This document shows, piece after piece, positions 1 to 14,835 of a stretch of 41,196 bases of DNA. The notes beneath the pieces were generated by a model that made no database searches, was not told where the DNA came from, and saw only the letters and a program-made list of their open reading frames with translations. The position numbers and the translations under genes are program-made. Numbering within the stretch: position 1 is the stretch's first letter; the number at the start of each line of letters is the position of its first letter. Source of the stretch: Myxococcaceae bacterium (lineage in GTDB: Bacteria > Myxococcota > Myxococcia > Myxococcales > Myxococcaceae); assembly GCA_019694595.1 (NCBI GenBank), contig JAIBBQ010000035.1:1-41196 (forward strand), read 5' to 3'.

Positions 1-3000
1 ACCGACTCGGTGGCGGTGGTGATGCTCGGCGCGCTGAAGGCGGGCGCGGCCTACGTGCCCCTCGACCTCGCGGCGCCCGATGCCCGGCTGTCGGCCATCG
101 CGCGCGACTCGGGCGCGGCGCTGGCCATCGTCGAAGGGCGCCCCCGGCCGGAAGGGTTCCCCGTCGACTGGGTGCCGCTGGCGCAGCTCGAGTCGAGCGC
201 GGACGAAGCGCCGCCCGCTCCGGTGACCTCCGCGCAGGCGCTCGCCTACGTCGTCTACACCTCGGGCTCCACCGGGGCGCCCAAGGGCATCGGCATTCCG
301 CACGCGGGCGTGCTGCGGCTGCTCGAGCGCACCGACTACGTGGCGCTCGGGCCCACGACGCGCATCGCCCAGCTGTCGAACCTCGCCTTCGACGCCGCAA
401 CCTTCGAGATCTGGGGCCCGCTCATCGCCGGCGGCACCCTGGTCGAGGTCCCCGAAGGCGTGGCGCTCTCTCCGGTGAAGCTCGCCGCCTTCCTGCGCCA
501 GGAGCGCATCACCACCACCTTCCTCACCAGCGCGCTCTTCAGCCTCGTCGCCAGCGAGGTGCCGTCGGCCTTCTCGGGCCTCGACACCTTGATGGCCGGG
601 GGCGAGGCGCTGGAGCCGAGCTGGGTGCGGGCGGTGCTCACCGCCGGCGGGCCGCGGCGGATGATCAACATCTACGGCCCCACCGAGACCACCACCTTCG
701 CCACCTGGTACCTCGTCGAGCAGCTCGCCCCCGACACCCGGAGCGTGCCCATCGGCCGCACCATCGCCAACACCGAGGCGCTGGTGCTCGACGCGGCGGG
801 GCAGCGGGTGCCCGCCGGGGTCGAAGGCGAGCTCTTCCTCGGAGGGCCCGGGCTCGCGTGGGGCTACCTGGGCCAGCCGCACGCCACCGCGGAGCGCTTC
901 GTGCCCCACCCGGAGCCCCGGACCCCTGGCGAGCGGCTGTACCGCACCGGCGATCGCGTCCGGTGGACCGAGGGCGGCCAGCTCGACTTCGTGGGGCGGC
1001 TCGACCATCAGGTGAAGCTCCGCGGCTTCCGCATCGAGCTGCCGGAGATCGAGCTCGCGCTGTGCGCCCACCCCGACGTGCGCGACGCCGTGGTGCTGGT
1101 GCGAGGCGCCGACCGGGCCCACCGTCACCTCGCTGCCTTCGTCGCGCTGCACCCGGGGCGCAGCGCCGCGCCCGAGACGCTCCGCGCGCACCTCGCCGCG
1201 CGTCTGCCCGACTACATGGTGCCCGGCGCCATCCGCCTCCTCGACGCGCTGCCGCTGGGCCCCACCGGCAAGGTCGACCGCGCCGCGCTGCTCGCCTTGG
1301 CCCCCGAGGTGGTGTCCGGGAGCGACGGGCTGCGCACGCAGACCGAGCGCGCGCTCGCTGCCGTCTGGTCCGAGGTGCTCGCGGTGCCGGTGACGACGCC
1401 GCAGGCGAGCTTCTTCGAGCTGGGCGGCCACTCGCTCCAGGCGACGCGCATCGTGGCGCGGGTGCGCGACCAGCTGGGGGTGGAGCTGCCCCTGCGCACG
1501 CTGTTCGACACCTCCACGCTCGAGGCGCAGGCGGCGGTGGTCGACGCGCTCCGGAATGACCGGCTGGCCCTGGAGCCGCTGCCCCGCACCGGGCCGCTGC
1601 CGCTGAGCTTCGCGCAGGAGCGGCTGTGGTTCCTGCAGCGCCTGGAACCGCGGAGCGCGGCCTACAACATTCACCTCGTCGGCCGGCTCGACCCGCCGGC
1701 GGAGCCGTCGTGCCTCGGGCGGGCCATCGACGCGCTGGTGGAACGCCACGAGGTCCTGCGCTCGCTCGTCGTCCAGTCGCCCACCGGGCCGCTCGCGCGG
1801 GTGCTGCCGTCGCCCCAGGGCGTGCTGTCGCACGAGGCGGTGGCGACCGAGGCCGAGGCGCTCCGGCGCGCGCGCGCCTTCGCCGATGCGCCCTTCGCGC
1901 TCGAGAGCGAGGTGCCGTTCCGCGCCCGGCTCTACACCGTCGCCCGCGGCCCCCAGGTGCTGGCGCTGTGCGTGCACCACCTGGCGGCCGACGGCGCGTC
2001 GGTGCCCATCCTCGTCGGGGAGCTCGACGCGCTCTACGAGGCGGCGCGGAGCGGACGGGGCTCGCCCCTGCCGGCGCTGCCCGTGCAGTACGTCGACTTC
2101 GCCGGGTGGCAGCGGCGCTGGGCGGCGTCGGGCGTGCTCGAGGCCCAGCTGGGCTTCTGGAAGGGCGTGCTCGAGGGCGCGGCGCCGGTCCTCTCGCTCC
2201 CGGTCGACCGCCCCCGGCCTGCGCTGCTCGACAGCGAGGGTGGCGTGGTCGAGGCGTCGGTCCCACTTTCGCTGCGCGATGCGGTGCACGCCTTCAGCAA
2301 GGACCGCGGCGTCACGCTCTTCATGACCTGGCTCGCGGCCTTCAAGGCGCTGCTGTTCCGCCTCGGCGGCCAGCGGGACGTGGTGGTGGGCACCCCCGTG
2401 TCGGGGCGCCTGCTGCCGCAGGTGGAGCCGCTCGTCGGGTGCTTCGTCAACACGCTGGCGCTGCGCGACCAGGTGTCGGGCGACCAGACCTTCGAGGCGC
2501 TGCTCGACGCGGTCAAGGAGACCTGCCTCGGGGCCTACGCCCACGCCGACGTGCCGTTCGATCGCGTGGTGGAGGCGCTGCGGCCCGAGCGCGCCACCAG
2601 CCACGCCCCGCTCTTCCAGGTGATGTTCACCTACCACCAGGGCCTCGCTGCCGAGGTCCAGCCGCGCGCGCTCGGGCTCACCGCCCTGCCGGTCGAGTCC
2701 CGCACCTCGGCGGTCGACTTCACGCTCACCGTCGACGAGCGCGCCGGCGAGGTCCAGCTCCACGGAGAGTTCGCCTCCGCGCTGTTCGACGCCGCGACCA
2801 TCGGCCGGTTCCTCGGCGCCTACGCGCGGCTCATGCGCGAGGCCCTGGCCCACCCGTCGAGGCCGCTGCGCGCGCTGCCGCTGTGGGACACCCCCGCGCC
2901 CGGGGCAGGGCGGGCGCTCGAGGAGGCTCCGGGTCAGACCGTCCTCGACGTGCTGGCGAAGCGAGTGCGCGCGCAGCCCGGGTCCATCGCCGTCCGCGCG

Positions 3001-5439
3001 GGGGAACGTCGCCTCTCGCTCGAGGAACTCTGGCGGCAGGCGGGATCGCTGGCGGCGCGACTGCGCGCGGGGCCGCCCGAGCCGCGGCCCATCGTCGCGG
3101 TGTGCGTCGAGCGCTCGGTGGAGCTGGTGGTCGCGCTGCTCGGCGTGCTGCGGGCGGGCGCGGCGTACCTCCCGCTCGACCCTGCCTTCCCCGACGAGCG
3201 GCTGCTCCAGGTGCTGCGGGCGGCCAAGGTCGGCCGCGTGGTCACCGGACCTTCGACCGACGCCCGCCTGCGCGCGCTCGGGGTGAGCACGGTGCCGGTG
3301 CACGGCGCGGGGGCCACGGGGCACGGGCTCCCGTCGGTGCCGGTGGAAGCGCCCGCCTACGTCATCTTCACCTCGGGCTCGACGGGAGAGCCGAAGGGCG
3401 TCGTGGTGTCGCACCGCGCGCTCTCGAGCTACGCGCGGTCGGCGCTCGCGACGTACGGCCTCACCGCGGCCGACCGCGTGCTCCAGTTCGCGTCGGTGGG
3501 CTTCGACGCCAGCGTGGAGGAGATCTTCCTCGCGCTGTGGGTGGGCGCCGAGCTGGTGATGCGGCCGGCTGGCCCGGTGCCGGGCGCGAAGGACCTGCTC
3601 TCGCTCTGCGACCGCGAGCAGCTGAGCGTGCTCGGGCTGCCCACCGCGTACTTCGCCGCGCTGGTGTCCGAGATGAAGCTGGGCGCGGTGCCGCTGCCCG
3701 CGGCGGTGAAGACGGTCATCGTCGGCGGTGAGCAGCTCGACGCAGAGACCGCGGCGACCTGGCGGCAGGTCGGCGGCGAGGGCGCCCGGCTCTTCAACAC
3801 CTACGGCCCGACCGAGGCGACGGTGGTGGCCACCGCGTGCGAGGTCGAGCCCGGCGCGACGCTCGGCGACCCGCCCATCGGCCACCCGCTGCCCCACACC
3901 GTCGCCCGGGTGTTCGACGCATACCTCGCGGCGCTGCCCCCAGGCCTCCCCGGCGAGCTGTTCCTCGGTGGGCCCGGCCTCGCCGACGGGTACCTCGACG
4001 ACCCCGCGCTCACCGCGGAGCGCTTCGTTCCCGACCCGGAGTCCGTGACGCCCGGTGCGCGGCTCTACCGGACCGGGGACCAGGTGCGGCGCCGGCCCGA
4101 CGGCCAGCTCGAGTTCCTGGGCCGGCTCGACGGCCAGCTCAAGATTCGGGGCCACCGCGTGGAGCCGCGCGAGCTCGAGGCCGCCGTGCTCGCCCACCCC
4201 GGGGTCCGCGCCGCGGTCGTCGTTCCCCGCCGCGTGGACACCAACGACGTGCGGCTGGTCGCGGTCGTCGTCGCCGCGCCGGGCGCCGGGCCGGGGCTCG
4301 AGCCGCTCCTGCGCGCGAGCCTCCTGCGCAAGCTCCCCGGCTTCCTGGTCCCCTCGGAGTTCGTCTGGGTGGAGCAGCTGCCGTTGACGGTGAACGGCAA
4401 GGTCGACCGGGCCGCGCTGGCCCGGCTCCCCTCGGCGGCTCCTGCTCCGGTGGCCGCGACCGATGGCGACCCGCTCGTCGCCTCGCTGTGCGCCCTGTGG
4501 TCCGAGGTGCTGGGCATTGCTGGCCTCGGGCCGGACGCCGACTTCTTCGCGCAGGGGGGACACTCGCTCTCCGCGCTCCGGCTCCTGTCGGCCGTGGAGC
4601 GCCAGCACGGCGTGACGCTCGGCTCGGAGGTCCTCTTCAGCGAGGCGACCCCTCGCGCCATCGCCCGGTGGATCCGCGACGGCTCCGCGACCCTAGCGCG
4701 CCGGCCGTCGCTGGTCCGGCTGCGCGACGGCGGGACGCAGGCGGTGGTCTTCGTGCACGCGGTCGACGGCGAGGTGCTGGTCTATCGGGCGCTCGCCTCC
4801 TCGCTCGGCCCCGAGTGGGCGTGCTGGGGGCTGCAGGCCGACCCGGCGCGCGGACAGCGCTCGCTGGAAGAGCTGGCGCGAGACGCGGTGCGAGCGCTCG
4901 AGGCCCTGGAGACGGTGGCGCTGGTCGGCTGGTCGTTCGGCGGCGTGCTGGCCTACGAGATCGCCCGGCAGCGCCGCGCTGCGGGGCAGGCCGTCGGTCC
5001 GCTGGTGCTCCTGGACTCCGCCCTCTGGGACCCCGACGACACCGAGGAAGATCCGGTGGAGCGCGAGCTCGCCCAGCTGGTGGAGCAGGGTGCCGGTCCC
5101 GCGGAGCTCGCCGCCAAGCTCCCTGCGGCGCTCGCGCTCACGCTCGAGGCGGTGTCTCCCGCGCGCGCCGCCCAGCTCTGGGAACGGGTGCGCCACCACT
5201 CCCGCGCGCTCGCCTCCTACCGGCCCGAGCCCTCCGACCTTCGCGCGTCCTTGCTCCTCGCCGAGATCCCGAGCGGTGCGCCGGGCCAGCTCGAAGCGCA
5301 GTGGCGCGCCCTGGCACTCGGTGGCCTCGCGGTGGGGCAGGTGCCGGGAGCGCACTACGCCATGTTCGAGCGGCAGCACCTGGCGTCGCTCGGCGCTGCG
5401 GTGCGCAGCGCGCTCGGGTCTCCGGTCGCGAGGCCCTGA
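1..5439 (+). CDS. Non-ribosomal peptide synthetase, terminal modules A-PCP-C-A-PCP-TE (5' partial)
   Basis: The frame is open from base 1, so the true start lies left of the window. Domains in order: an adenylation (A) domain from A2 (LKAGAAYVPLD) through A3 (YTSGSTGAPKG), A5 (NIYGPTE), A7 (YRTGD) and A10 (PTGKVDR); a PCP with GGHSL, phosphopantetheine Ser codon 1432-1434; an LCL-like condensation domain starting LSFAQERLWFLQ with HHLAADG at 1975-1995; a second A domain (FTSGSTGEPKG, NTYGPTE, NGKVDR); a second PCP (Ser codon 4564-4566); and a thioesterase with GWSFGG (Ser codon 4933-4935) and a late His at 5353. By alignment to GrsA the first pocket reads D-A-F-F-M-G-I-T-F-K, one change from a published Ile code (DAFFYGITFK). 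The second reads D-A-E-G-I-G-T-V-V-K, which I cannot assign. No epimerase domain is visible. The TE marks this as the last enzyme of the assembly line. Confidence 0.95.
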   Translation, partial: TDSVAVVMLGALKAGAAYVPLDLAAPDARLSAIARDSGAALAIVEGRPRPEGFPVDWVPLAQLESSADEAPPAPVTSAQALAYVVYTSGSTGAPKGIGIPHAGVLRLLERTDYVALGPTTRIAQLSNLAFDAATFEIWGPLIAGGTLVEVPEGVALSPVKLAAFLRQERITTTFLTSALFSLVASEVPSAFSGLDTLMAGGEALEPSWVRAVLTAGGPRRMINIYGPTETTTFATWYLVEQLAPDTRSVPIGRTIANTEALVLDAAGQRVPAGVEGELFLGGPGLAWGYLGQPHATAERFVPHPEPRTPGERLYRTGDRVRWTEGGQLDFVGRLDHQVKLRGFRIELPEIELALCAHPDVRDAVVLVRGADRAHRHLAAFVALHPGRSAAPETLRAHLAARLPDYMVPGAIRLLDALPLGPTGKVDRAALLALAPEVVSGSDGLRTQTERALAAVWSEVLAVPVTTPQASFFELGGHSLQATRIVARVRDQLGVELPLRTLFDTSTLEAQAAVVDALRNDRLALEPLPRTGPLPLSFAQERLWFLQRLEPRSAAYNIHLVGRLDPPAEPSCLGRAIDALVERHEVLRSLVVQSPTGPLARVLPSPQGVLSHEAVATEAEALRRARAFADAPFALESEVPFRARLYTVARGPQVLALCVHHLAADGASVPILVGELDALYEAARSGRGSPLPALPVQYVDFAGWQRRWAASGVLEAQLGFWKGVLEGAAPVLSLPVDRPRPALLDSEGGVVEASVPLSLRDAVHAFSKDRGVTLFMTWLAAFKALLFRLGGQRDVVVGTPVSGRLLPQVEPLVGCFVNTLALRDQVSGDQTFEALLDAVKETCLGAYAHADVPFDRVVEALRPERATSHAPLFQVMFTYHQGLAAEVQPRALGLTALPVESRTSAVDFTLTVDERAGEVQLHGEFASALFDAATIGRFLGAYARLMREALAHPSRPLRALPLWDTPAPGAGRALEEAPGQTVLDVLAKRVRAQPGSIAVRAGERRLSLEELWRQAGSLAARLRAGPPEPRPIVAVCVERSVELVVALLGVLRAGAAYLPLDPAFPDERLLQVLRAAKVGRVVTGPSTDARLRALGVSTVPVHGAGATGHGLPSVPVEAPAYVIFTSGSTGEPKGVVVSHRALSSYARSALATYGLTAADRVLQFASVGFDASVEEIFLALWVGAELVMRPAGPVPGAKDLLSLCDREQLSVLGLPTAYFAALVSEMKLGAVPLPAAVKTVIVGGEQLDAETAATWRQVGGEGARLFNTYGPTEATVVATACEVEPGATLGDPPIGHPLPHTVARVFDAYLAALPPGLPGELFLGGPGLADGYLDDPALTAERFVPDPESVTPGARLYRTGDQVRRRPDGQLEFLGRLDGQLKIRGHRVEPRELEAAVLAHPGVRAAVVVPRRVDTNDVRLVAVVVAAPGAGPGLEPLLRASLLRKLPGFLVPSEFVWVEQLPLTVNGKVDRAALARLPSAAPAPVAATDGDPLVASLCALWSEVLGIAGLGPDADFFAQGGHSLSALRLLSAVERQHGVTLGSEVLFSEATPRAIARWIRDGSATLARRPSLVRLRDGGTQAVVFVHAVDGEVLVYRALASSLGPEWACWGLQADPARGQRSLEELARDAVRALEALETVALVGWSFGGVLAYEIARQRRAAGQAVGPLVLLDSALWDPDDTEEDPVERELAQLVEQGAGPAELAAKLPAALALTLEAVSPARAAQLWERVRHHSRALASYRPEPSDLRASLLLAEIPSGAPGQLEAQWRALALGGLAVGQVPGAHYAMFERQHLASLGAAVRSALGSPVARP

Positions 5440-5521
5440 TCTCCCCGCGCATCACCGGAGCGACACCCGGGCCGGGAGGCCTGCGCTCCGGCTGCAGGGT
5501 CGGTGTTATTGGCTCGACGGC

Positions 5522-6076
5522 ATGGCCTCGGTCCCCGAAAGCGCCCAGCGGTACTTCACCGAGTGGCTCCCTCGCCAGGGGGGCGCGCGGGTGGCCGGGC
5601 CGGCGACGGCCCGGATCCGCGTGGTGGTCACCGGCGACGGCGGCGGTGCGTGGGACCTCGAGGCCGGCCCCTCGGGGCTCACGGCCGGGCCTCAGGGGAC
5701 GGCCCCCGCCCAGGCCTCGCTCGAGCTGTCCGTCGAGGACTTCCGCGAGCTCTTCCTCGGGACCTCGCTGGCGCCCGCGGGCGTCGAGCGCAGCGACCTC
5801 TGCTTCCTGAACCCGCAGGTCCGCTCGCTCATCGGCGCGGCCCCGGGGGTGGTGCAGCTGGAGATCGACGGCGTCGCCGGGCGCACCTGGCGCATGCGTG
5901 TCGTCTTCGGCGACGGCGCGGGCACCGAGCCGACCACGGTGACGCTGCCCCGCGAGGCCTTCACCCGGCTGCTGACGCGCGAGTCGGTGCCGCCCGCGCT
6001 GATGGAGTCGGGCGACCTGCAGTTCACCGGGGAGCCGCACCTCGCCATGCAGCTCGCCCTGGGGTTGGTGCCGTAG
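5522..6076 (+). CDS. SCP2-like (sterol-carrier fold) protein
   Basis: A 184-aa protein starting at the ATG 82 bases after the NRPS stop. I chose this ATG because the reading frame upstream overlaps the NRPS thioesterase region. The C-terminal part (PPALMESGDLQFTGEPHLAMQL) resembles the SCP2 pattern in which an 'a..G.l.v.Gd..la..l' segment closes a lipid-binding pocket. The N-terminal half (VVVTGDGGGAWDLEAG ... LELSVEDFRELFLG) resembles the start of the same fold, so it may hold two SCP2-like halves. SCP2 proteins bind acyl chains or hydrophobic ligands. Its place between the NRPS and the tailoring genes suggests a role with a lipidic or carrier-bound intermediate, which is inference. No signal peptide or membrane segment is seen. 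Confidence 0.55.
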   Translation: MASVPESAQRYFTEWLPRQGGARVAGPATARIRVVVTGDGGGAWDLEAGPSGLTAGPQGTAPAQASLELSVEDFRELFLGTSLAPAGVERSDLCFLNPQVRSLIGAAPGVVQLEIDGVAGRTWRMRVVFGDGAGTEPTTVTLPREAFTRLLTRESVPPALMESGDLQFTGEPHLAMQLALGLVP

Positions 6077-6083
6077 CCACGCC

Positions 6084-6665
6084 ATGCGAATTCGCCCTGC
6101 CGAGCGCGCCGATCTCCCGAGCATCGCCCGCGTCTTCACGCAGACGACGCGGCACGCCTTCAACGCCTTCACGCCCGGCGGCCGCACGGAATCGGGGCTC
6201 GGCGCAGAAGCCATGGTCCCCGAAGGTCAGGCGCTCATCGAGTTCGCCTGGGACCTCTGGTGGGGCCAGTGGTTCGCGTACGTCGCCGAGCTCCGTCCGG
6301 GCGAGGTGGTGGGATTCTCTTGCGGCGGCGCCGAGGCCACCGAGACCACCGAGCACCGGGTCCAGATGCGAGGGCTCTACGTGCTGCCCGAGCACCAGGG
6401 CGGCCTCGTCGGGCGCTTCCTGGCCAGCGCGGTCGCCTCGCGCTTCCTCGAGCTCGGTCACCGCAGCCTGATGTCGTGGGTGCTGGAGCAGAACGTCGCC
6501 GCCCGCGACTTTCACGTGGGCCTGGGCGGCGAGCCGCGCTACCGCGTGGAGAGCGTGGGGTACTTCGTCCGTGAGGTCCCGCCGGGACCCGAGGTCCACG
6601 CGCTGGTCGGCTACGTGTGGGACGACGCGTCCGCGCTCGTCATTCGCCGGCGGGCGAGGAGCTGA
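6084..6665 (+). CDS. GNAT-family N-acetyltransferase
   Basis: A 193-aa protein beginning 7 bases after the SCP2-like gene. The GNAT motif A is clear at residues about 95-113 (RGLYVLPEHQGGLVGRFL), the acetyl-CoA pyrophosphate-binding loop. A motif-B-like stretch follows around SWVLEQNVAARDFHVGLGG. The N-terminus (MRIRPAERADLPSIARVF) is typical of the family. Length is normal for a single-domain GNAT. The acceptor cannot be read from sequence; in this operon it may acylate an amine of the product, act as self-resistance, or be unrelated. The stop overlaps the start of the next gene (TGATG), indicating translational coupling. Confidence 0.85.
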   Translation: MRIRPAERADLPSIARVFTQTTRHAFNAFTPGGRTESGLGAEAMVPEGQALIEFAWDLWWGQWFAYVAELRPGEVVGFSCGGAEATETTEHRVQMRGLYVLPEHQGGLVGRFLASAVASRFLELGHRSLMSWVLEQNVAARDFHVGLGGEPRYRVESVGYFVREVPPGPEVHALVGYVWDDASALVIRRRARS

Positions 6666-7666
6666 TGTCCGCGGCGTCCACGCCTGCAGCCGCCTCCACC
6701 GGCGCGGTCGATCGCCGGCCGCCGGAGCTCGAGCGACTCGACTTCAAGCTGCTCGACTGCCTGGAGGTCAACGTCGCGGCGCTGCTCGAGCTGCGCGGCG
6801 CCCCGGACCTGCGCGCACCCTTCGCCTGCGAATGGCACTTCGACGTGGAGCCGGGGCAGCTGTCGCCCGTGCTCGAGCGCACGCCGCTGGCCAGCCGCCT
6901 CGCAGCCACGACCGCCTTCACGCTCGAGGTCCGGCAGAGCACCCCGGCGCGAGTGCTCGCGGACTGCCTCCCGCTGGTGCGCTCGGGCCAGCGCGTCCTG
7001 GTGCGCGGCGACGCCATGTCGATGGACTGGCTGCCGTACTTCGGGCGGGAGTCGATGGACCACAGCCTGGTGCTGGAGTCCGTCGACCCCGACGGGCGCC
7101 GCCTGCAGGTGCTCGACGCCTACGACAACGTCACCGAGTGGGGCGAGGCCAGCCCGGTGCGGCTCCAGGTCGACGCCTCGCTGGTGGAGCGCGCGGTGGG
7201 CTCGCTCGGTACGCCCTTCGCCGGCTGGTGGGCGACGCTCGAGCCGAAGCCGACGGCGCCGCGCTTCGACGCCTTCCAGGTGCTGCGCGCCAACGCCGAG
7301 GCGATGGCGTCTCACGCGGGCCGCATCGCCCGCTTCCGCGACACGGCCTTCGAGGCGCGCGGCGACGGCGAGGCGATGAAGCGCTTCTCGCTCGCCTGCT
7401 GGCTCGTCCACCGCGCGAGGACCCTGCACGGGCTCTGGCTCGGCGATCTCGCCGCGGGTGGCTGGACGGAAGGGACTTCCTTCGCCCGGTCCTTCCAGGA
7501 CGAGGTCGCCGGTCGCTGGAAGCGGGTCAACGAGCTCGCGTACCTGGTGTACCGGCGGGCGCGGCTCGGCAAGCCGGCGCCCCAGGTGGTGTTCGACGTG
7601 CTGGGCGAGCTCGAGGCCGTGGAGCGCGACCACGCGCAGCGGCTGGGGGCGGCGTTGCCCCGCTGA
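6665..7666 (+). CDS. BtrH_N-like papain-fold acyltransferase candidate
   Basis: A 333-aa protein started at the ATG that overlaps the GNAT stop codon. Its layout resembles the BtrH N-terminal family (butirosin acyl-ACP:aminoglycoside acyltransferase): an early Cys in LLDCLEVNVAALLELRG (Cys32), then a VLVRGDAMSMDWLPYF segment, a His in MDHSLVLESVDPDG (His133) and an Asp in LQVLDAYDN (Asp151). That is the Cys/His/Asp order expected of a papain-like fold, and 'D..YLPY...H.LVL...D......V.D' is the feature I used. In butirosin this enzyme moves an ACP-bound acyl group to an amine. Here free carrier proteins and a BtrK-like decarboxylase lie just downstream, which supports an acyl-transfer job. The assignment is by pattern memory, not by search. 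It could instead be a divergent cysteine peptidase-like protein. Confidence 0.55.
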   Translation: MSAASTPAAASTGAVDRRPPELERLDFKLLDCLEVNVAALLELRGAPDLRAPFACEWHFDVEPGQLSPVLERTPLASRLAATTAFTLEVRQSTPARVLADCLPLVRSGQRVLVRGDAMSMDWLPYFGRESMDHSLVLESVDPDGRRLQVLDAYDNVTEWGEASPVRLQVDASLVERAVGSLGTPFAGWWATLEPKPTAPRFDAFQVLRANAEAMASHAGRIARFRDTAFEARGDGEAMKRFSLACWLVHRARTLHGLWLGDLAAGGWTEGTSFARSFQDEVAGRWKRVNELAYLVYRRARLGKPAPQVVFDVLGELEAVERDHAQRLGAALPR

Positions 7667-7683
7667 CGGGGCCGGCGGGCGCG

Positions 7684-9270
7684 ATGGGCATCACGATTCA
7701 CCAGCGGGTCCTCGAGCAGGCCGAGCGGACGCCTCGGGCCGTCGCGCTGCGGGGGCCTGGCGGCGCGTACACCTACGCCGAGCTCGCCCAGCGGGTGCGC
7801 GCGCTCGCGCACGGCCTGGCCGCGGCGCTCCCGCCCGGCGCGCGGGTGGCGATTCACCGCCCGAAGAGCATCGACGCCATCGTCGACCTGCTCGCCTGTC
7901 TTTGTGCCGGCTGCGCGTACGTGCCGCTCGACGCCGCCAGCCCGATGCCGCGCACCCGCTTCGTGCTCGAGGACAGCGGGGCCGACGCGCTCGTCACCGA
8001 CGAGCACACCGCGGCGCTGTGGTCGCAGGCGCCGGACGCGCTCGAGCGCCTCGCGCTGGTGGTGATGCCCGACGGTCACGGTCCGGCCCACCCGCGCCGC
8101 CGCACCCACGCGGCGCTCGCCGAGCCCGCCCCCGCCACGGAGGCGGTGCGCCCCGTCGCCGCCGAGGCGCTCGCCTTTCTCCTCTACACCTCGGGCTCCA
8201 CCGGCACGCCCAAGGGCGTGGCCATCACCCACGGCAACGCGTCGGCCTTCGTGGAGTGGGCGCTCGAGGCCTTCGACGTGGGGCCGGGCGACACCGTGGC
8301 GGTTCACGCGCCGCTGCACTTCGACCTCCCGGTGTTCGACCTCTACGTGAGCCTCGGACGTGGGGCCACCGTCTGTCCCGCCGACGAGGCGACGCTCAAG
8401 TTCCCCGAGGCTTTCCTGCGCTGGCTGCGCAGCGAGCGGGTGAGCGTGCTCTACGCGGTACCCTCCGCGCTCCTCGCGCTCCTCAAGCGCAGCACCGTGG
8501 CCAAGGGTGGCCTGGGCGACCTGCGGCTCCTGCTCTACGCGGGCGAGGAGTTCCCCGTGCCGCGGCTCCGCGAGCTGCGCGCGCTGCTGCGGCCCGACGC
8601 CCGGGTCTTCAACCTCTACGGCCCGGTGGAGACCAACGTCGTCACCTGCTGCGAGGTCGGCCCCGCGGAGCTCGCGCTCGCCCGCGTGCCCATCGGCACC
8701 GCGGTGAGCCAGGCGCGGCTCGTCCTCGTCGACGAGGCGCGCGCGGTGATTGCGCCCGAGCGCACCGGCGTCGAAGGCGAGCTGCTGGTCAGCGGGCCGA
8801 GCGTCTCTCCGGGCTACTGGCGTCGTGACGACCTCACCGCCGCGGCGCGCGAGGTGGTGAACGTCGCCGGCGAGTCGCTGCGCTGTCACCGCACCGGCGA
8901 CTTCGCGGCGTGGGGGCCCGGTGGCCGGCTCGACTTCCGCGGCCGCCGCGACGGCATGGTGAAGAGCCGCGGCTACCGCATCGACCTGGGAGAAATCGAG
9001 TCGGTGCTGGCCGACGCTCCCGGGGTGGCGGAGCTGGCGGCGGTCGGCGTGCCGCACCCCGAGCGCACCACCGAGGTGGTGGCCTTCGTGGTCGCCCGCG
9101 ACGGCTCGGCGAGGGACGAGGTGCCGCTGCTCGCCCGCTGCCGGGAACGGCTCCCGCCGTACATGGTGCCTGCACACGTCTACTGGCGCGACGCTCTGCC
9201 GCACACCACCACCGGCAAGGTCGATCGCGTGCAGCTGGTGGCGTGGGCGCAGGAAGGGGCCCGGCGATGA
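7684..9270 (+). CDS. Free-standing adenylation enzyme, probable L-prolyl-[PCP] ligase
   Basis: A 528-aa stand-alone A domain starting 17 bases after the BtrH-like gene at MGITIHQRVLEQAERTPRAVAL, a normal A-domain N-terminus. Core motifs are complete: A2 (CAYVPLD), A3 (LYTSGSTGTPKGVAITH), A4 (HFDLPVFDLY), A5 (FNLYGPVETN), A7 (HRTGDF), A8 (GRRDGMVKSRGYRIDLGEIE) and A10 (TTGKVDR). The ten pocket residues by GrsA alignment are D-L-F-Y-L-A-L-V-V-K. From memory the code of proline-activating enzymes of pyrrole pathways (PltF, RedM, CloN4/CouN4) is DLFYLALVCK, a single C-to-V difference. Hence it probably makes prolyl-AMP and loads proline on the PCP encoded next. Its stop overlaps that PCP start (ATGA). 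The A-domain call is certain; the substrate is inference. Confidence 0.9.
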   Translation: MGITIHQRVLEQAERTPRAVALRGPGGAYTYAELAQRVRALAHGLAAALPPGARVAIHRPKSIDAIVDLLACLCAGCAYVPLDAASPMPRTRFVLEDSGADALVTDEHTAALWSQAPDALERLALVVMPDGHGPAHPRRRTHAALAEPAPATEAVRPVAAEALAFLLYTSGSTGTPKGVAITHGNASAFVEWALEAFDVGPGDTVAVHAPLHFDLPVFDLYVSLGRGATVCPADEATLKFPEAFLRWLRSERVSVLYAVPSALLALLKRSTVAKGGLGDLRLLLYAGEEFPVPRLRELRALLRPDARVFNLYGPVETNVVTCCEVGPAELALARVPIGTAVSQARLVLVDEARAVIAPERTGVEGELLVSGPSVSPGYWRRDDLTAAAREVVNVAGESLRCHRTGDFAAWGPGGRLDFRGRRDGMVKSRGYRIDLGEIESVLADAPGVAELAAVGVPHPERTTEVVAFVVARDGSARDEVPLLARCRERLPPYMVPAHVYWRDALPHTTTGKVDRVQLVAWAQEGARR

Positions 9271-9527
9271 GCGAGGGGCGCGCCAGGCTGCTCGCCACGG
9301 TGCTCGCCGTCGTCGGCGAGACGGTGCCCGACCGTGCCGCCTCGCTCACCGCGGAGACGCCGCTGGTGGAGACGGGGCTGCTCGACTCGGTGGCCATCAT
9401 GAACGTCGTGGAAGAACTCGAGCGGCGCGTGGGGCGCGACTTCCCCGCGGAGCTCCTGTTGCCGGAGACCTTCGCCACCGCCGCGGTCCTCACCGACGCG
9501 CTGCTCGCTTCAGGGGGCTTCGCATGA
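9267..9527 (+). CDS. Free-standing peptidyl/acyl carrier protein 1
   Basis: An 86-aa single-domain carrier protein. The phosphopantetheine attachment motif is ETGLLDSVAIMNVVEELE, with Ser41 as the modified residue. The GLLDS form is common in stand-alone carriers loaded by discrete A domains such as the PltF/PltL pair. It overlaps the adenylation gene before it and the ligase gene after it by 4 bases each (ATGA at both ends). By context it is the likely acceptor of the prolyl group and the platform for the dehydrogenase. Confidence 0.9.
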   Translation: MSEGRARLLATVLAVVGETVPDRAASLTAETPLVETGLLDSVAIMNVVEELERRVGRDFPAELLLPETFATAAVLTDALLASGGFA

Positions 9528-11005
9528 GGCTGCTCCACGACCTCCTCGATTCGGCCGCCGCCGCCTTCCCCGAGCGCATTGCGGTGCGCGACGGTGCCGC
9601 CGACGTCACCTACGCGGCGCTGCAGCGTGACTCGCGTGCGCTCGCCGCCTGGCTCTCGGCGCGGGGCATCGGCCGCGGCGCGCGGGTGGCGCTGTTGCTC
9701 CCCAGCGGCGCCGGCGCGGTGACGTCGCTCTTCGCGGTCTCGCGCCTGGGCGCGCTCTTCTCGCCGCTGCACCCCGAGCTCAAGCCGCGGCAGCTCCAGT
9801 ACGTGCTGTCGGACATGGCGCCCGCGGCGGTCATCACCACCGAGGCGCTCCAGCAAGCGCACGGCCTCGCCGCCCACCCGCTGGTGCTCACGCTGGGCTC
9901 CGCGGCGTGGACCGAGGCGCTTGCGTCGAGCGCGGCGCCGCCTCCGTTCCCCGGCGTCTCCTTCGACCCGGTGTGCCTCCTCTACACCTCGGGGAGCACC
10001 GGGCTGCCCAAGGCGGTCATCTCCGCCCACGCCAACGTGGTGTTCGCGGCCGGCGCCATCCAGTCGCGGCTGCGCATCGAGTCGAGCGACACCATCGGCA
10101 GCTTCCTGCCGCTGTCCTTCGACTACGGGCTCTACCAGTGCTTCCTCGCCTGCCTCGCCGGAGCCACGCTGGCGCTGGGCCAGCCGGGGCAGGCCGGCCC
10201 CGGCATGGTGCGCAAGCTCGCAAGCTTCGGCGCCACCTTCGTGCCGCTGGTCCCTTCGCTGGCCACGGTCATCGTGCAGCTGTCGCGCAACATGAAGGAG
10301 CGCCCGCCGTTCCGCGCCTTCACCAACACCGGCGCGCACCTCTCGCGCGCGCAGATCGACGACCTCACCGCGCTGTACCCCGAGGCCAAGGTCTTCGTGA
10401 TGTTCGGCATCACCGAGTGCAAGCGGGTCTCCATCCTCGACCCCGCCGACTACCCGCGGAAGCCGGACTCCGTGGGCCGGCCGCTGCCCGACACCGAATG
10501 TCTCATCGTCGACGAGGCGGGCCAGCCGCTGCCGCCCGGCGAGCGGGGAGAGCTCGTGGTGCGCGGGCCGCACGTGATGCGCGGCTACTGGAACGCGCCC
10601 GAGCTCACCGCGAAGCGCTTCCGCCGGGTGGGCCCCGGGCTCGAGCACGCGCTCTTCACCGGCGACACCTGCAGTCTCGACGCCGACGGCTTCCTCTACT
10701 TTCACGGGCGCAACGACGACATCTACAAACAGGGCGGCTACCGGGTCAGCGCGCTGGAGGTGGAGGCCGCCGCCCTCGACGTGCCCGGCGTGGTGGGCGC
10801 GGCGCTGGTGCTGCGCGGAGAGTCCCCGCCGGTGCTCTTCGTCACCGGCACCACCGAGGGGCCCCAGGTCGTCGCCGGGCTGCGCGAGCGGCTGGAGGAC
10901 TTCAAGGTGCCGCCCACCGTCGAGCGGCTCGAGTCGCTCCCGCTCACCGGCAACGGCAAGGTGGACAAGGCGGCGCTGCGAGCGCGCGCGGACGGTGCGC
11001 CGTGA
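9524..11005 (+). CDS. AMP-dependent acyl/aminoacyl ligase (exosortase-A-associated type)
   Basis: A 493-aa ANL-superfamily enzyme. The phosphate-binding loop is LLYTSGSTGLPKAVISAH, the A5-like motif FGITECKRVS, the ribose-binding Asp in LFTGDTCSLD, the hinge GRNDDIYKQGGYRVSALEVE, and the catalytic Lys in GNGKVDKAAL. FGITE in place of YGPTE and the overall style resemble the 'acyl-CoA ligase (AMP-forming), exosortase A system-associated' family, which sits with an ACP and a PLP decarboxylase in that system, the same partners as here. It probably loads a carboxylic or amino acid on the second carrier protein (12249-12503), but CoA as acceptor is not excluded. It overlaps both neighbours by 4 bases. 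Confidence 0.85.
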   Translation: MRLLHDLLDSAAAAFPERIAVRDGAADVTYAALQRDSRALAAWLSARGIGRGARVALLLPSGAGAVTSLFAVSRLGALFSPLHPELKPRQLQYVLSDMAPAAVITTEALQQAHGLAAHPLVLTLGSAAWTEALASSAAPPPFPGVSFDPVCLLYTSGSTGLPKAVISAHANVVFAAGAIQSRLRIESSDTIGSFLPLSFDYGLYQCFLACLAGATLALGQPGQAGPGMVRKLASFGATFVPLVPSLATVIVQLSRNMKERPPFRAFTNTGAHLSRAQIDDLTALYPEAKVFVMFGITECKRVSILDPADYPRKPDSVGRPLPDTECLIVDEAGQPLPPGERGELVVRGPHVMRGYWNAPELTAKRFRRVGPGLEHALFTGDTCSLDADGFLYFHGRNDDIYKQGGYRVSALEVEAAALDVPGVVGAALVLRGESPPVLFVTGTTEGPQVVAGLRERLEDFKVPPTVERLESLPLTGNGKVDKAALRARADGAP

Positions 11006-12252
11006 GCGACCTCCTCGCCCTCGTCGAGCAGTACGGCAGCCCGCTCTACGTCTACGAGCTCCCCGAGGTGCGGCGCGCCTGCCAGGCGCTGCGCGCCGCG
11101 CTCCCCGACGGCAGCCACCTCTTCTATTCGCTCAAGGCCAACCCGCACCCCGAGCTGGTGCGGGCGCTGGCCGAGCTCGGCTGCCGCGCCGAGGTCTCTT
11201 CACTCGGAGAGCTCGAGGCCGCGCTGTCCGCGGGGTGCGCCGCCAGCGAGATGCTCTACACCGGCCCCGGCAAGTCGCGCCGCGAGGTGGACGAGGCGCT
11301 CGCCGCGGGCGTCACCCAGTTCTCCTTCGACTCCCCGGTGCAGGGCGCGGTGGTCGGCGCGGCTGCGAAGGCCGCGGGGCGCACGGTGCGCGGCGTGCTG
11401 CGGGTGAACCCCGACGGCGGCTCGAGCGCCTTCGGCCTCGCGATGGGCGGAGGCCCGTCGCCCTTCGGCTTCGATGCGTCCGCGGTGCGCAAGGCCGCGC
11501 GCGAGTTCGCCTCCGATGGCTGGGTGGACCTGCGTGGCTTTCACTTCTACGTGGGCACCAACGCCGACCAGCCCGAGGCGCTGCTGGCGACCTTCGAGAC
11601 CGCCATCGCCACCGCCGTCGAGCTGCAGACGGCGCTGGGCATCGAGCTCGAGCTGCTCGACCTGGGCGGAGGCTTCGGCCAGGCCTTCGCCGCGCCGGGC
11701 GCGCGGGTGGATTTCACCGCACTCAAGGCGCCGCTGGAGCGAATGCTCGACGCCAGGCTGCCCGGCTGGCGGCGGCAGCGTCCGCAGATTGCCTTCGAGT
11801 CCGGCCGCTACCTCGTCGGCGCCGCGGGCACGCTGGTGTGCACGGTGGAAGACGTGAAGGCGAGCGGCGACCGCACCTTCGCGGTGCTGGACAGCGGCGT
11901 GAATCACCTCGGTGGGCTGGGCGGCCTGCGGAAGATCACCCCCGGCCAGGTGAAGGTCGAGCTGCTCTCGCCGGGCGCGGACGCACCTTTGGCCCCCGTC
12001 GACGTCGTGGGGCCGCTGTGCACTCCGGCCGACGGCTGGGCGCGCAACGTCGCATTGCCCCGACTCGCTCCGGGCCAGCGCCTCGTCGTGCGCAACGTCG
12101 GTGCGTATGGCATCACCGCCAGCCTGCTGGCCTTCCTCAGCCGCGAAGCGCCGGTGGAGGTCGTGGTGGACGGAGCGCGGGTCTCGGCCTCCCGGCTCTC
12201 GGTACAGCGCAGCAGCGTGGCCCATGCAGCACCCTCGAGGAGACAACCGTGA
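11002..12252 (+). CDS. Fold-III PLP-dependent decarboxylase, BtrK/exosortase-A-associated type
   Basis: A 416-aa alanine-racemase-fold decarboxylase, starting at a GTG inside the previous stop (GTGA). The PLP lysine is Lys45 in FYSLKANPHPE. The phosphate-binding Gly-rich loop LDLGGGFGQ lies near residue 220, the substrate-side FESGRYLVGAAG near 265, and the active-site Cys from the partner subunit is Cys340 in GPLCTPADGWA. The GPLCTP...D and SGVNHL segments resemble the subgroup holding BtrK (which decarboxylates a glutamyl-ACP) and the exosortase-A-associated decarboxylases, more than free diaminopimelate or arginine decarboxylases. The directly adjoining ligase and ACP support a carrier-bound substrate. 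A free amino acid substrate (ornithine, lysine, diaminopimelate) is the alternative. Confidence 0.85.
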   Translation: MSDLLALVEQYGSPLYVYELPEVRRACQALRAALPDGSHLFYSLKANPHPELVRALAELGCRAEVSSLGELEAALSAGCAASEMLYTGPGKSRREVDEALAAGVTQFSFDSPVQGAVVGAAAKAAGRTVRGVLRVNPDGGSSAFGLAMGGGPSPFGFDASAVRKAAREFASDGWVDLRGFHFYVGTNADQPEALLATFETAIATAVELQTALGIELELLDLGGGFGQAFAAPGARVDFTALKAPLERMLDARLPGWRRQRPQIAFESGRYLVGAAGTLVCTVEDVKASGDRTFAVLDSGVNHLGGLGGLRKITPGQVKVELLSPGADAPLAPVDVVGPLCTPADGWARNVALPRLAPGQRLVVRNVGAYGITASLLAFLSREAPVEVVVDGARVSASRLSVQRSSVAHAAPSRRQP

Positions 12253-12503
12253 GCGTTCCTTCGGAAGAGAAGTTCGTGGCGGTGCTGCGGCCCCACCTGC
12301 GGTTCCTGGCGCCCGGTGCTCCGGTCGACTGGGAGCGGTCGCTCAAGGACCTCGGCCTCAACTCGCTCTCGTCGGTCAACCTGCTCGTCGACCTCGAGGA
12401 GGCGTTCGACCTCACCTTCTCCGACGACCAGCTGGCGCCGGAGTCCTTCGCCACCGCGCGGACCCTGTGGAAGGCCGTCTCCGGCGGAGCGGGGCCGGCG
12501 TGA
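12249..12503 (+). CDS. Free-standing acyl carrier protein 2
   Basis: An 84-aa carrier protein with GTG start overlapping the decarboxylase stop. The attachment motif is KDLGLNSLSSVNLLVDLEEAF, with Ser39 as the phosphopantetheine site. The residue before it is Asn38, where most carriers have Asp; such DSL-to-NSL forms occur in some specialised carriers. An acidic helix II and the LTFSDDQLAPESFAT region are typical of an ACP. The position between the decarboxylase and the flavoproteins makes it the likely platform for both. It overlaps the next gene by GTGA. Confidence 0.9.
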   Translation: MSVPSEEKFVAVLRPHLRFLAPGAPVDWERSLKDLGLNSLSSVNLLVDLEEAFDLTFSDDQLAPESFATARTLWKAVSGGAGPA

Positions 12504-13666
12504 GCGAGCCGCTGCTGGAGACCGCGGACCGCCTGGCCAAGGTGCTGGCGGAGCACGCCGCCTCGGTGGACGCGCAGGCGCGCTTCCCGGTCGAAGGCGT
12601 GCGCGCGCTCCGCGAGAGCGGTTTCCTCGGGCTGCTGGTGCCGCGCGCCTTCGGTGGCCTCGAGGCGGACCTCCCCACCTTCTCCGCCATCGCGCAGCGG
12701 CTCGCCGGCTCGTGCCTGTCGACGGCGATGGTGTGGGCGATGCACTGCCAGCAGGTGGCGATCCTCGTCGCGCACGCGGGCCCCGAGCTCGAGGCTTCGC
12801 TGCTCCCGCGGCTCGGCGCCGGCAAGGTGTACCTGGCGTCCATCACCACCGACCCGTCGAACGGCGGCGACCCGCTGGTGGCGCAGAGCCCGCTCCTCGA
12901 GCGCGGGGCGAACGTCGCCTTCTCGCGCGAGTCCCCGGTGGTGACCGGCGGGGAGAACGCCGACGGCTACCTGCTCACCCTCAAGGCGAGCGAGGCCGCC
13001 ACGCCGGCGCAGGTGGTGTTCGCCTACGCGGACCGCGCCCAGGTGGAGCTCACCCAGGTCGAGCCCTGGGCGCTGATGGGCATGCGCGGGACCCGGAACG
13101 TGAAGCTCACCATCAGCGGACAGGTGCCGCGCACCCAGGTGCTGGGGCTCGGCGGGGCCGGCCCGGACATCGTCGCCGACACGCTGGTGCCCATGGGCCA
13201 CATCGCCTGGGCGTCGTGCTGGCTCGGCGCCGCCCGAGGGCTCCTCGTGCAGATGCTCCAGGCGCTCCGGGCGGATCCCCGCCGGCGCCGGGCGCTCGCC
13301 TCCGACCTCCTCGCGGTGAAGATGGGCGACGTGGAGCTGAAGCTCGACGCCGCCGAGGTGTACCTGCGCCGCGTGGTCGACGACTACCAGCGCGTGCGCA
13401 CCTCGCCCCAGGGCACGGCGGAGCTGCGCTCCTACGAGTTCCATCGGCGCCTCAACGGCCTCAAGGTGCTCGCGGCCAGCACCGCCTTCGCCGCGGTCGA
13501 TGCGCTCCTCGAGGACGCGGGCTTCCGCGGCGGCTACCTCCAGAGCGCGCCCCTGCCGGTGGAGCGCGTCTTCCGCGACCTCCGCTCGGCGAGCCTGATG
13601 GTGCCCAACGAGCGCCTGCTGCTGCTCAACGGGCGCACGCTGCTCATGGGCTGGGGGGCGCAGTGA
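12500..13666 (+). CDS. Acyl-CoA dehydrogenase-like flavoprotein 1 (divergent)
   Basis: A 388-aa acyl-CoA dehydrogenase/group-D flavin monooxygenase family protein. The N-terminal segment (LRESGFLGLLVPRAFGGLEADLPTFSAIAQRLAGSC) is characteristic. The usual TEP.AGSD flavin motif is degenerate (ASITTDPSNGGDP), and the position matching the catalytic Glu in its neighbour is Ala238 (HIAWASCW against HIATERLAG). It also ends without the EGT/GGT..I segment. So it may be the non-catalytic partner of a heteromeric dehydrogenase, or a DszC-like monooxygenase with other chemistry. GTG start within the ACP stop; GTGA overlap with the next gene. Substrate is probably carrier-bound, by context. Confidence 0.75.
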   Translation: MSEPLLETADRLAKVLAEHAASVDAQARFPVEGVRALRESGFLGLLVPRAFGGLEADLPTFSAIAQRLAGSCLSTAMVWAMHCQQVAILVAHAGPELEASLLPRLGAGKVYLASITTDPSNGGDPLVAQSPLLERGANVAFSRESPVVTGGENADGYLLTLKASEAATPAQVVFAYADRAQVELTQVEPWALMGMRGTRNVKLTISGQVPRTQVLGLGGAGPDIVADTLVPMGHIAWASCWLGAARGLLVQMLQALRADPRRRRALASDLLAVKMGDVELKLDAAEVYLRRVVDDYQRVRTSPQGTAELRSYEFHRRLNGLKVLAASTAFAAVDALLEDAGFRGGYLQSAPLPVERVFRDLRSASLMVPNERLLLLNGRTLLMGWGAQ

Positions 13667-14835
13667 CGACCGCCGCAGCCCCCGAGGGCGCGCTGGCCAG
13701 CTTCCGCGCGCTGGTTCGCGAGCTGGTGGCCCGCGAGGTGACGCCGCACGCCGCCGCGTGGGACCGGGCGGGTGCCTTCCCGCGCGCGGTGCTGGAGTGC
13801 CTGGGCGACGCGGGCGTCATCTCCGCCTGCTTCGAGAACGTGCCGTCGGGGCGGAGCGCGGTGCCGCTCGACGTCGCCCGCTACGCGGTGCTGGTCGAGG
13901 AGCTCGCCCACGCGCGCTGCTTCGGGCTCTCGCTCAGCGTGGCGCTGCACGTCGGCGTCTACCTGCCGCTGCTGTCGAGGCTGGGCACCCAGGCCACGCG
14001 CGAGCGGTTGCTGCCTCCCGCGCTCTCGGGCCGCGCGCTGGGCGCCTTCGCCACCACCGAGGGCGAGGTGGCCGGCTCCGACCTCCTCGGCCTCGCCACC
14101 ACGCTCGAGCCGCGCGACGGCGGCTTCCGCCTCACCGGCGAGAAGGCCTACGTGTCCAGCGTCCCCGGAGCGGACCAGGTGGTGGTGCTCGCCCGCACCG
14201 CGCCGGGCCGGCACTTCGCCAACCTCGCCCTGGTGGTGGTGGACGCGAAGGCCAAGGGCGTCCACGCCGAGCGCCAGCCGCTCCAGGTGATGCGCGCCGC
14301 GGCGGTGGGCCGGCTGCGCTTCGACGCCGTGGAGCTCGACGCCGACGCGCTCCTGGGACGCCGGGAGCTCGGCCTCGCCTACTTCCAGGACCACATCGCC
14401 ACCGAGCGTCTCGCCGGCGCCGTGTGGGCGTGCGCGGTGGGCGAGCGCTGCGTCGAGGAGGCCCGTCAGCACTGCCTCGCGCGGCGGCTGGGCGAGGACA
14501 CCCTGTGGGGGAACGCCGCCGTCCGCCAGCGCCTGGGAACGGCCCAGGTCCAGCTGGCGCTCCTGCGGGCCCTGGTGGAGAAGACGGTGCGCCTGGCGCA
14601 GGCCCAGGGCCGCGTGCCGTCGCTCGAGGCCGCCGAACTCAAGGCCGCCGTGGCCCCGACGATGGAGACCGTCATCGGGACCTGTCTGCAGCTGCAGGGC
14701 GCGGCCGGCTTCGTGGACGGCAGCCCGCTGCTCCAGCTGCTCGCCGACTTCCGAGTCTTCGGCGTGGCCGGGGGCAGCACCGAGACGATGCTCGAGCAGG
14801 TCGCCGACCTCTGGTCGAGACCGACGCCCCCCTGA
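13663..14835 (+). CDS. Acyl-CoA dehydrogenase-like flavoprotein 2, candidate prolyl-PCP dehydrogenase
   Basis: A 390-aa acyl-CoA dehydrogenase. It shows the flavin/substrate motif ATTEGEVAGSD, the GFRLTGEKAYVSS strand (LNG.K.WITN equivalent), and Glu248-Arg249 in HIATERLAG, which matches the catalytic Glu of the isovaleryl-CoA dehydrogenase type (also WERA in PltE, from memory). At the MCAD-type position it has AGGSTE rather than YEGT, consistent with that type. Together with a proline-code A domain and free PCP in the same operon it is the best candidate to oxidise prolyl-PCP to pyrrolyl-2-carboxyl-PCP. Action on the second ACP-bound substrate is the alternative. Last gene of the plus-strand operon; 12 bases before the convergent desaturase. 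Confidence 0.85.
   Translation: MTTAAAPEGALASFRALVRELVAREVTPHAAAWDRAGAFPRAVLECLGDAGVISACFENVPSGRSAVPLDVARYAVLVEELAHARCFGLSLSVALHVGVYLPLLSRLGTQATRERLLPPALSGRALGAFATTEGEVAGSDLLGLATTLEPRDGGFRLTGEKAYVSSVPGADQVVVLARTAPGRHFANLALVVVDAKAKGVHAERQPLQVMRAAAVGRLRFDAVELDADALLGRRELGLAYFQDHIATERLAGAVWACAVGERCVEEARQHCLARRLGEDTLWGNAAVRQRLGTAQVQLALLRALVEKTVRLAQAQGRVPSLEAAELKAAVAPTMETVIGTCLQLQGAAGFVDGSPLLQLLADFRVFGVAGGSTETMLEQVADLWSRPTPP

Follow-up and report, generated by a model that had tools for sequence, protein, structure and literature searches.

What does a ligase, a PLP-dependent decarboxylase and an acyl carrier protein (ACP) make when encoded together beside a non-ribosomal peptide synthetase (NRPS)? 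This question is raised by an operon in a 41,196-nucleotide stretch of myxobacterial DNA, hereafter the window, which is the complete contig C82. The AMP-forming ligase, the fold-III PLP decarboxylase and the ACP are successive genes with 4-base overlaps between neighbors, and lie 3' of a two-module NRPS whose N-terminus is truncated at the contig start (Table 1). The gene coordinates confirm this arrangement, which had been recognized earlier from the sequence, as do the family assignments, with TIGR03098, TIGR03099 and PF00550 as the respective best models. The chain of overlaps is in fact longer than had been claimed, linking the adenylation (A) enzyme and its carrier (9267-9270), carrier and ligase (9524-9527), ligase and decarboxylase (11002-11005), decarboxylase and ACP (12249-12252), ACP and ACAD1 (12500-12503), and ACAD1 and ACAD2 (13663-13666). 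Beyond the trio, the operon encodes a BtrH-like acyltransferase and a second adenylation enzyme with a carrier upstream, and two acyl-CoA-dehydrogenase-fold flavoproteins (ACAD1 and ACAD2) downstream. The reading that we favor, with a probability of roughly 0.7, is that a VinN/VinO/VinL-type module makes a β-aminoacyl thioester on the ACP and passes an oxidized unit to the NRPS pathway.

Table 1. Genes of the operon, with positions in the window and the basis of each assignment
Feature	Position	Strand	Basis
NRPS, two modules visible, A-T-C-A-T-TE	1..5439	+	Pfam: 2 AMP-binding, 1 condensation, 2 PP-binding, 1 thioesterase
SCP2-like protein, same operon direction	5522..6076	+	PF02036, 35.4 bits
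GNAT-family acetyltransferase	6084..6665	+	PF00583, 36.3 bits
BtrH-like acyltransferase, candidate acyl mover between carriers	6665..7666	+	Homology via L071 protein
Free-standing amino-acid adenylation enzyme	7684..9270	+	TIGR01733, 333.2 bits (cutoff 317.4)
Carrier protein 1, Ser in GLLDSV	9267..9527	+	PF00550, 25.7 bits
VinN-type ligase, predicted to activate a side-chain carboxylate (L-Asp)	9524..11005	+	3wvn, 353.5 bits; VinN clade
VinO-type fold-III PLP decarboxylase, GTG start, predicted ACP-bound substrate	11002..12252	+	Clade; BtrK/DAPDC matches
ACP (carrier 2), GTG start, Ser in LGLNSL, partner of ligase and decarboxylase	12249..12503	+	PF00550, 34.9 bits
ACAD1, acyl-CoA-dehydrogenase-fold flavoprotein, monooxygenase-like	12500..13666	+	Both usual catalytic Glu sites missing
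ACAD2, putative acyl-thioester dehydrogenase	13663..14835	+	Glu aligned to LCAD QERL

The best PDB match of the ligase is VinN (Table 1), and in a tree of 67 ligases minus two fragments (L081 and L105), an 11-row clade with support of 100/97 holds the window ligase, VinN and the macrolactam-type loci, with 41 exosortase-type rows branching off at 100/99. Judged by these relatives, the ligase belongs with the VinN (vicenistatin) type. The recognition residues of VinN are given as Asp230, Ser299 and Arg331 (PMC7756342). In VinN numbering, the window ligase keeps D230, K330 and R331 and shows a conservative replacement of Ser299 by Thr, and its position 229 is a Phe as against the Trp of VinN and of three mutase-bearing loci. 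The sequence does not discriminate between Asp, Glu and another amino dicarboxylate. Further, the ligase displays an ECKR motif and not the EAFR of exosortase-A-type ligases, and within the set examined ECKR/EAKR versus EAFR splits natural-product from exosortase-A pairs, a signature that helps in asking what the exosortase-A pair makes. The extended form TECKR was rejected as a stand-alone diagnostic; it is also found in ligases without an adjoining decarboxylase and, hence, is by itself no proof.

One proposal would make the trio an exosortase-A accessory set that has become displaced, and these observations bear on it. The best NCBIfam models for the ligase (TIGR03098, 342.3 bits, cutoff 592.35) and the decarboxylase (TIGR03099, 271.1 bits, cutoff 478.45) do come from that set, but both scores fall far under the cutoffs, the ligase motif differs and the clades are separate. 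Additionally, the claim that no exosortase is present in the window holds genome-wide: a PF09721 search returned 0 matches in the genome concerned (99% complete), the same search gave matches in 15 of the 20 genomes taken for comparison, and exosortase is present in 10 of the 11 EAFR genomes tested. We regard this proposal as hardly credible. The zero count of a PEP-CTERM search in this genome shows nothing, since its control was likewise without any match.

Among solved structures the decarboxylase is closest to BtrK (166 bits), followed by diaminopimelate decarboxylase (DAPDC; 140 bits). Phylogenetically, an 18-row clade with support of 100/99 unites it with the mutase-bearing macrolactam-type loci, VinO itself not being among the rows of the tree, and by sequence affinity it belongs to this VinO-type clade. 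AU tests on 39 rows, which were chosen from 98 after inspection of the 98-row tree so that the p-values are not blind, rejected its grouping with BtrK (p 1.28e-6), with the exosortase set (p 8.9e-5) and with DAPDC (p 0.003), and all three memberships were discarded. The original prediction had called this enzyme BtrK/exosortase-A type, which does not stand; the clade assignment that it proposed places both ligase and decarboxylase with the VinN/VinO type, apart from BtrK and exosortase-A.

The same data address whether the decarboxylase might act on a free amino acid (diaminopimelate, lysine or ornithine) with its neighbors being coincidental. The TIGR01048 lysA model does score 228.7 bits, but this is under its cutoff of 297.9, a further homologue is encoded elsewhere in the genome (contig C39), and the ligase and ACP neighbors are conserved. 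The enzyme was not found among the free lysine, ornithine or diaminopimelate decarboxylases, the grouping with DAPDC being rejected as noted above, and we consider such an activity very improbable. The view that carrier-bound rather than free amino-acid decarboxylation has been recruited to a peptide pathway is supported.

With regard to the substrate, the butirosin pathway offers a glutamate version, in which L-Glu is loaded via its γ-carboxylate, decarboxylated to GABA-ACP and then desaturated or hydroxylated. The match to BtrK, the BtrH-like protein in the operon and ligase pocket residues compatible with Glu agree with this version, but the grouping of both enzymes with the VinN/VinO types and the rejection of the BtrK grouping count against it. 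Moreover, the window ligase is AMP-forming whereas BtrJ, the loading ligase of butirosin, is of the ATP-grasp type. In sum, we find the glutamate version quite unlikely. The methylaspartate (glutamate) mutase PF06368 adjoins the decarboxylase in three annotated macrolactam-type loci (L154, L158 and L160) and has 0 matches in the present genome, by a search whose control was itself weak (1/14, below cutoff), which points to Asp rather than 3-methyl-Asp. The substrate is most likely L-Asp or a close amino dicarboxylate.

The gene structure, the family and clade memberships and the cassette recurrence are direct results of the present analysis. In the pathway that we favor, the ligase would first adenylate an amino dicarboxylic acid at its side-chain carboxylate and load it onto carrier 2, L-aspartate being the most likely substrate. 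The PLP decarboxylase would then strip the α-carboxylate from the ACP-bound substrate to give β-alanyl-ACP. For Asp, these two steps are modeled on the published relatives AfcQ/AfcK/AfcP, as dehydro-β-alanine formation is on BolQ; we infer here the substrate, the three subsequent steps and the order of these. In the third step, the second adenylation enzyme would charge carrier 1 with an amino acid, and the BtrH-like transferase would link both units, probably by acylating the new β-amine.

The BtrH-like protein has no Pfam match, PF14399 being absent even at E 0.1, and a structure model with a mean pLDDT of 50.3 was too poor for a structure search. Its 31% identical homologue in L071 scores 30.0 bits with PF14399 (BtrH_N) against a gathering threshold of 29.7. 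Inspection of the alignments shows conservation of C32, H133 and N155, and in L150 and L153 the protein is fused to a carrier domain. The subfamily is sparsely distributed: among 195 Myxococcota genomes only the genome of the window itself has it (0 of the 194 others), and all 3 occurrences in 72,556 plasmid records lie in such a cassette.

In the fourth step, ACAD1 and ACAD2 would oxidize the carrier-bound unit, the simplest outcome being an enamide (dehydro-β-alanine, cf. BolQ), with ACAD1 possibly adding oxygen; the NRPS would finally use or release the product. In ACAD2, the Glu of TERL aligns to the QERL of LCAD (QQRL in entry 8w0z). In ACAD1, the catalytic Glu is missing at both the MCAD and the LCAD/IVD positions, with an H in GHIAW, and VPN replacing the YEGT-type stretch. 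The top structural matches of its model (mean pLDDT 67.9) are TdsC, DszC, MsuC and MAB_4123, the FMN monooxygenases TdsC/DszC reaching Z of about 35 versus up to 33.7 for dehydrogenases. The missing Glu and the slightly better monooxygenase match weaken the case for plain desaturation. With the first two steps unchanged, ACAD1 could instead act as a flavin-dependent monooxygenase and oxygenate the β-amine unit on its carrier at N or C (a hydroxylamine, oxime, nitro or nitrile type of product). Flavin reductases are annotated in L150 and L153, in agreement with this, but profile scans identified none among the window operon genes, the Z margin is just 1-3 units on a model of such pLDDT, and the best PDB sequence match of ACAD1 is butyryl-CoA dehydrogenase (66.5 bits). 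We view a monooxygenase as possible, though with the odds somewhat against it. A Myxococcus-type trio (L046) adjoins an AurF-type N-oxygenase domain, which is likewise in keeping with oxygenation. In favor of the main reading, a decarboxylase-ACAD fusion occurs in Tritonibacter (L155).

A bolder and more doubtful scheme is that a BtrH-type (papain-like) enzyme, and not a condensation domain, joins an aminoacyl group on one carrier to a decarboxylation-derived β-amine on a second, forming the amide, and that an ACAD-fold flavoprotein of monooxygenase type then adds oxygen to the tethered unit, e.g., on N, all within a horizontally shared cassette. If true, the resulting building block would be warhead-like and without a known counterpart in bolagladin or vicenistatin.

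Ligase and decarboxylase are found paired in different phyla, and a Streptomyces locus has the same five genes (BtrH-like protein, A enzyme, carrier, ligase and decarboxylase) in collinear order, with one cupin gene inserted there; together these indicate an arrangement that is more than chance. L153 has ligase, decarboxylase, ACP, ACAD1 and ACAD2 in the order of the window, L150 combines the BtrH-like gene with ligase-decarboxylase-ACP-ACAD1, a set that recurs in Streptomyces, and L071 has the BtrH-like gene, A enzyme, carrier, ligase and decarboxylase, with ACP and ACAD1 on the opposite strand. The BtrH-like gene with ligase-decarboxylase-ACP-ACAD1 is a recurring, genome-minable cassette in Actinomycetota and Myxococcota. 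No bol or afc locus was recovered among the best 80 of 471 relatives in a genome-contig scan or in the plasmid search; a Burkholderia plasmid match (L152) was not accepted as an AFC locus since its ligase carries EAFR.

The original prediction held that the trio beside an NRPS was not a described combination, a position overturned by the publications on bolagladin and AFC-BC11. A ligase, ACP, decarboxylase and ACAD beside peptide assembly genes, the feature common to these two, are also present in the window. A literature search for the cassette found its chemistry matched only by these systems and a macrolactam review. In Burkholderia gladioli, bolagladin is specified by BolO-BolC-BolN-BolQ beside the NRPS BolH. 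As in the window, a modular NRPS is accompanied by a VinN-like ligase, a free ACP, a decarboxylase resembling BtrK and VinO, and an acyl-CoA dehydrogenase; the bolagladin set makes dehydro-β-alanine. According to that report, bolN deletion is not rescued by β-alanine, and bolQ deletion leads to β-Ala in place of dehydro-β-Ala (PMC7756342). Bolagladin differs in its citrate-primed fatty acid and the KASIII-like BolM/BolP, proposed there to act in acylation (PMC7756342); a scan of the operon genes at positions 1-14835 found no such KASIII-type gene, and the window has instead the BtrH-like transferase, the second A enzyme with carrier and two ACADs. For AFC-BC11 of the Burkholderia cepacia complex, in vitro loading of L-Asp by its side chain on AfcK by AfcQ and decarboxylation there by AfcP are reported; AfcQ-AfcK-AfcP(-AfcE) differs in being iterative on one carrier, with a FAAL-supplied acyl group and no C-domain NRPS (PMC12186527). 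Solanimycin was set aside as a dehydro-β-alanine case, dehydro-α-alanine residues being reported for it instead (PMC10204066), and BtrH, acyl-CoA dehydrogenases and BtrK are mentioned in other gene neighborhoods in another paper (PMC2922099).

Butirosin, with BtrK/BtrH, shares carrier-bound α-decarboxylation and a BtrH-type transferase with the window, but differs in decarboxylase clade and ligase type, and the exosortase-A set is a related ligase-decarboxylase pair of separate clades with the EAFR signature. Vicenistatin, i.e., VinN-VinL-VinO(-VinM-VinK), shares the ligase and decarboxylase clades, a free ACP and a second A enzyme, which there aminoacylates the β-amine, but uses mutase-made 3-methyl-Asp and feeds a PKS (PMC11284099), in contrast to the NRPS and mutase-free genome seen here. 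What is new is the cassette, the core chemistry being already known from a few antibiotics; with it, carrier-bound Asp-type decarboxylation, known from macrolactams of Streptomyces and lipopeptides of Burkholderia, would extend to an NRPS operon in a myxobacterium.

The gene set is a real and probably functional beta-aminoacyl-carrier cassette, comprising a BtrH-like protein, a ligase, a fold-III PLP decarboxylase, an ACP and ACAD1, the first of two acyl-CoA-dehydrogenase-fold flavoproteins. The 4-base overlaps originally noted between neighbours in the ligase-decarboxylase-ACP trio are borne out, and the overlap chain extends both ways, from the adenylation enzyme to ACAD2. The window is an entire contig from a genome of 7.28 Mb that is 99% complete. 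At 14848-16284 on the minus strand, convergent with the end of the operon, is a His-box-rich membrane protein that by eye resembles fatty-acid desaturases.

Genes of the operon in the window
Feature	Coordinates	Position
NRPS, A-T-C-A-T-TE, cut by contig start	1-5439	upstream of trio
SCP2-like protein	5522-6076	upstream of trio
GNAT	6084-6665	upstream of trio
BtrH-like protein	6665-7666	upstream of trio
adenylation enzyme	7684-9270	
carrier	9267-9527	
ligase	9524-11005	
decarboxylase	11002-12252	
ACP	12249-12503	
ACAD1	12500-13666	
ACAD2	13663-14835	

Against NCBIfam, the decarboxylase scores 271.1 bits with TIGR03099 (cutoff 478.45) and 228.7 bits with lysA (cutoff 297.9), and its PDB matches are BtrK (166 bits) and DAP decarboxylases (<=140 bits). 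In a tree of 98 rows it belongs to a group of 34 (SH-aLRT 99) that excludes BtrK and almost every row whose ligase carries the motif EAFR; the EAFR locus L088 does fall inside this group. In a 39-row tree, hand-picked from those rows, 18 VinO-type decarboxylases form a clade at 100/99, and placing the window protein with BtrK (p-AU 1.3e-6), the EAFR group (8.9e-5) or DAP decarboxylase (0.003) is rejected. The initial BtrK/exosortase-A-type label thus gives way to a VinO-type assignment. The macrolactam type is represented here not by VinO itself but by L154, L158 and L160, all with annotated methylaspartate mutase genes; the gene lists of L154 and L160 also include PKS genes.

The top solved-structure match of the ligase is 3wvn (353.5 bits; named in the table only 'Non-ribosomal peptide synthetase'), which we take to be VinN. 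Numbered as in VinN, the window ligase carries Asp230, Thr299, Lys330 and Arg331; the VinN recognition residues are Asp230, Ser299 and Arg331, according to PMC7756342. The ligase tree has 72 rows: 65 from loci, four from other genomes, VinN, and two from the window (this ligase and the other A enzyme). The window ligase shares an 11-row clade (100/97) with VinN and the macrolactam-type loci, and 41 exosortase-type ligases form a separate one (100/99). The motif at positions 328-331 is EAFR in 40 of the 65 locus rows, ECKR in 19, EAKR in three, ECHR in two and EAHR in one; in the set examined, EAFR goes with ligases of the exosortase-A type, and ECKR or EAKR with those of the VinN type. ECKR is insufficient alone, because some ECKR ligases have no directly adjoining decarboxylase; the three of these in the tree fall outside the window's 23-row clade. 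ECKR-type trios also occur in Verrucomicrobiota MAGs (L072, L075, L079, L083, L084, L086) and cyanobacteria (L073, L074), where the type likewise coexists with exosortase.

Profile searches of the window's own genome found neither exosortase (PF09721) nor methylaspartate mutase (PF06368); as a control, PF09721 was found in 15 of 20 other genomes (10/11 EAFR, 5/9 ECKR). Given the missing mutase, aspartate is the likelier predicted substrate over 3-methylaspartate, with glutamate also a candidate. For a case built on sequence alone, confidence is high in the prediction that an amino dicarboxylate is decarboxylated while bound to the carrier.

Decarboxylases at E 1e-45 or better occur in 16 of 195 Myxococcota genomes, the window's own included. 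The closest (45-48%) come from a single genus, represented by five genomes; in each, the ligase directly adjoins the decarboxylase by coordinates, and the other gene neighbours differ from the window's. At L046:6882-12798, in a Myxococcus-type genome, the trio follows a protein of 1025 aa that combines a reductase domain (NAD_binding_4) with alpha/beta-hydrolase and AurF N-oxygenase domains, and no NRPS was seen at that locus; its product may be an N-oxygenated C3 unit, and L047, L048, L054 and L106 are similar.

Among the matches listed, the closest cassettes are actinobacterial. Streptomyces MBT53 (L071) has BtrH-like, A, carrier, cupin, ligase and decarboxylase genes on one strand and ACAD1 and ACP on the other. 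The Streptomyces NBC_00704 plasmid (L153) runs from ligase through ACAD2 in the window's order, and also holds an NRPS, a PPTase and a flavin reductase; an S. californicus plasmid (L150) has carrier, BtrH-like, ligase, decarboxylase, ACP, ACAD1, PPTase, A and flavin reductase. L157 has decarboxylase-ACP-ACAD1-ACAD2 with no adjoining ligase of this type, and in Paenibacillus (L151) ligase and decarboxylase match at 45-46% and ACAD1 goes unmatched. In Lentzea albidocapillata subsp. violacea (L070:728-12660), ligase-decarboxylase-ACAD1-ACP adjoins genes for a YcaO protein and for a stand-alone condensation-domain protein, and might supply a YcaO-type product with a beta-amino-acid cap.

ACAD2 looks like a working acyl-thioester dehydrogenase, since its Glu aligns with the LCAD residue (Gln in entry 8w0z). 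ACAD1, the one common to cassettes, has no Glu at either known catalytic site in the alignments. Its AlphaFold model (mean pLDDT 67.9) matches TdsC/DszC monooxygenases at Z ~35 and dehydrogenases at up to 33.7, a small gap at that pLDDT; desaturation and oxygenation are both candidate reactions. A natural decarboxylase-acyl-CoA dehydrogenase fusion on a Tritonibacter mobilis plasmid (L155:11968-14403) supports a general coupling of the two chemistries, with its ACAD part missed by both the ACAD1 and ACAD2 profiles; KASIII-like and adenylation genes lie nearby. A Pantoea stewartii plasmid (L156:9765-11137) has a carrier-ACAD1 pair (37%) without ligase or decarboxylase, adjoining EPSP-synthase-like and adenylyl-sulfate-kinase genes.

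The window's BtrH-like protein has no Pfam match, and its L071 homologue (31%) barely attains BtrH_N (30.0 vs 29.7 bits); C32, H133 and N155 are invariant in all four aligned copies. It occurs in one of 195 Myxococcota genomes, its own, and in three of 72,556 plasmid records, every one with the cassette. This exclusive linkage, together with carrier-domain fusions in L150 and L153, suggests that it acts between carriers, where, by analogy to BtrH and VinM, it would form an amide on the beta-amine.

The central idea of the original prediction, carrier-bound decarboxylation for a peptide pathway, holds in kind, although its pairing with an NRPS, which the prediction did not know as described, had been published before. 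Related chemistry is known from bolagladin, AFC-BC11 and vicenistatin. BolO, BolC, BolN and BolQ adjoin the tetramodular NRPS BolH, beta-alanine gives no rescue of a bolN deletion, and bolQ deletion yields the bolagladin analogue that carries beta-alanine (PMC7756342); AfcQ loads Asp on AfcK and AfcP decarboxylates it in vitro (PMC12186527); and VinN, VinL and VinO act before VinM (PMC11284099). The window cassette is a variant of the same kind as these VinN/VinO/BolN systems.
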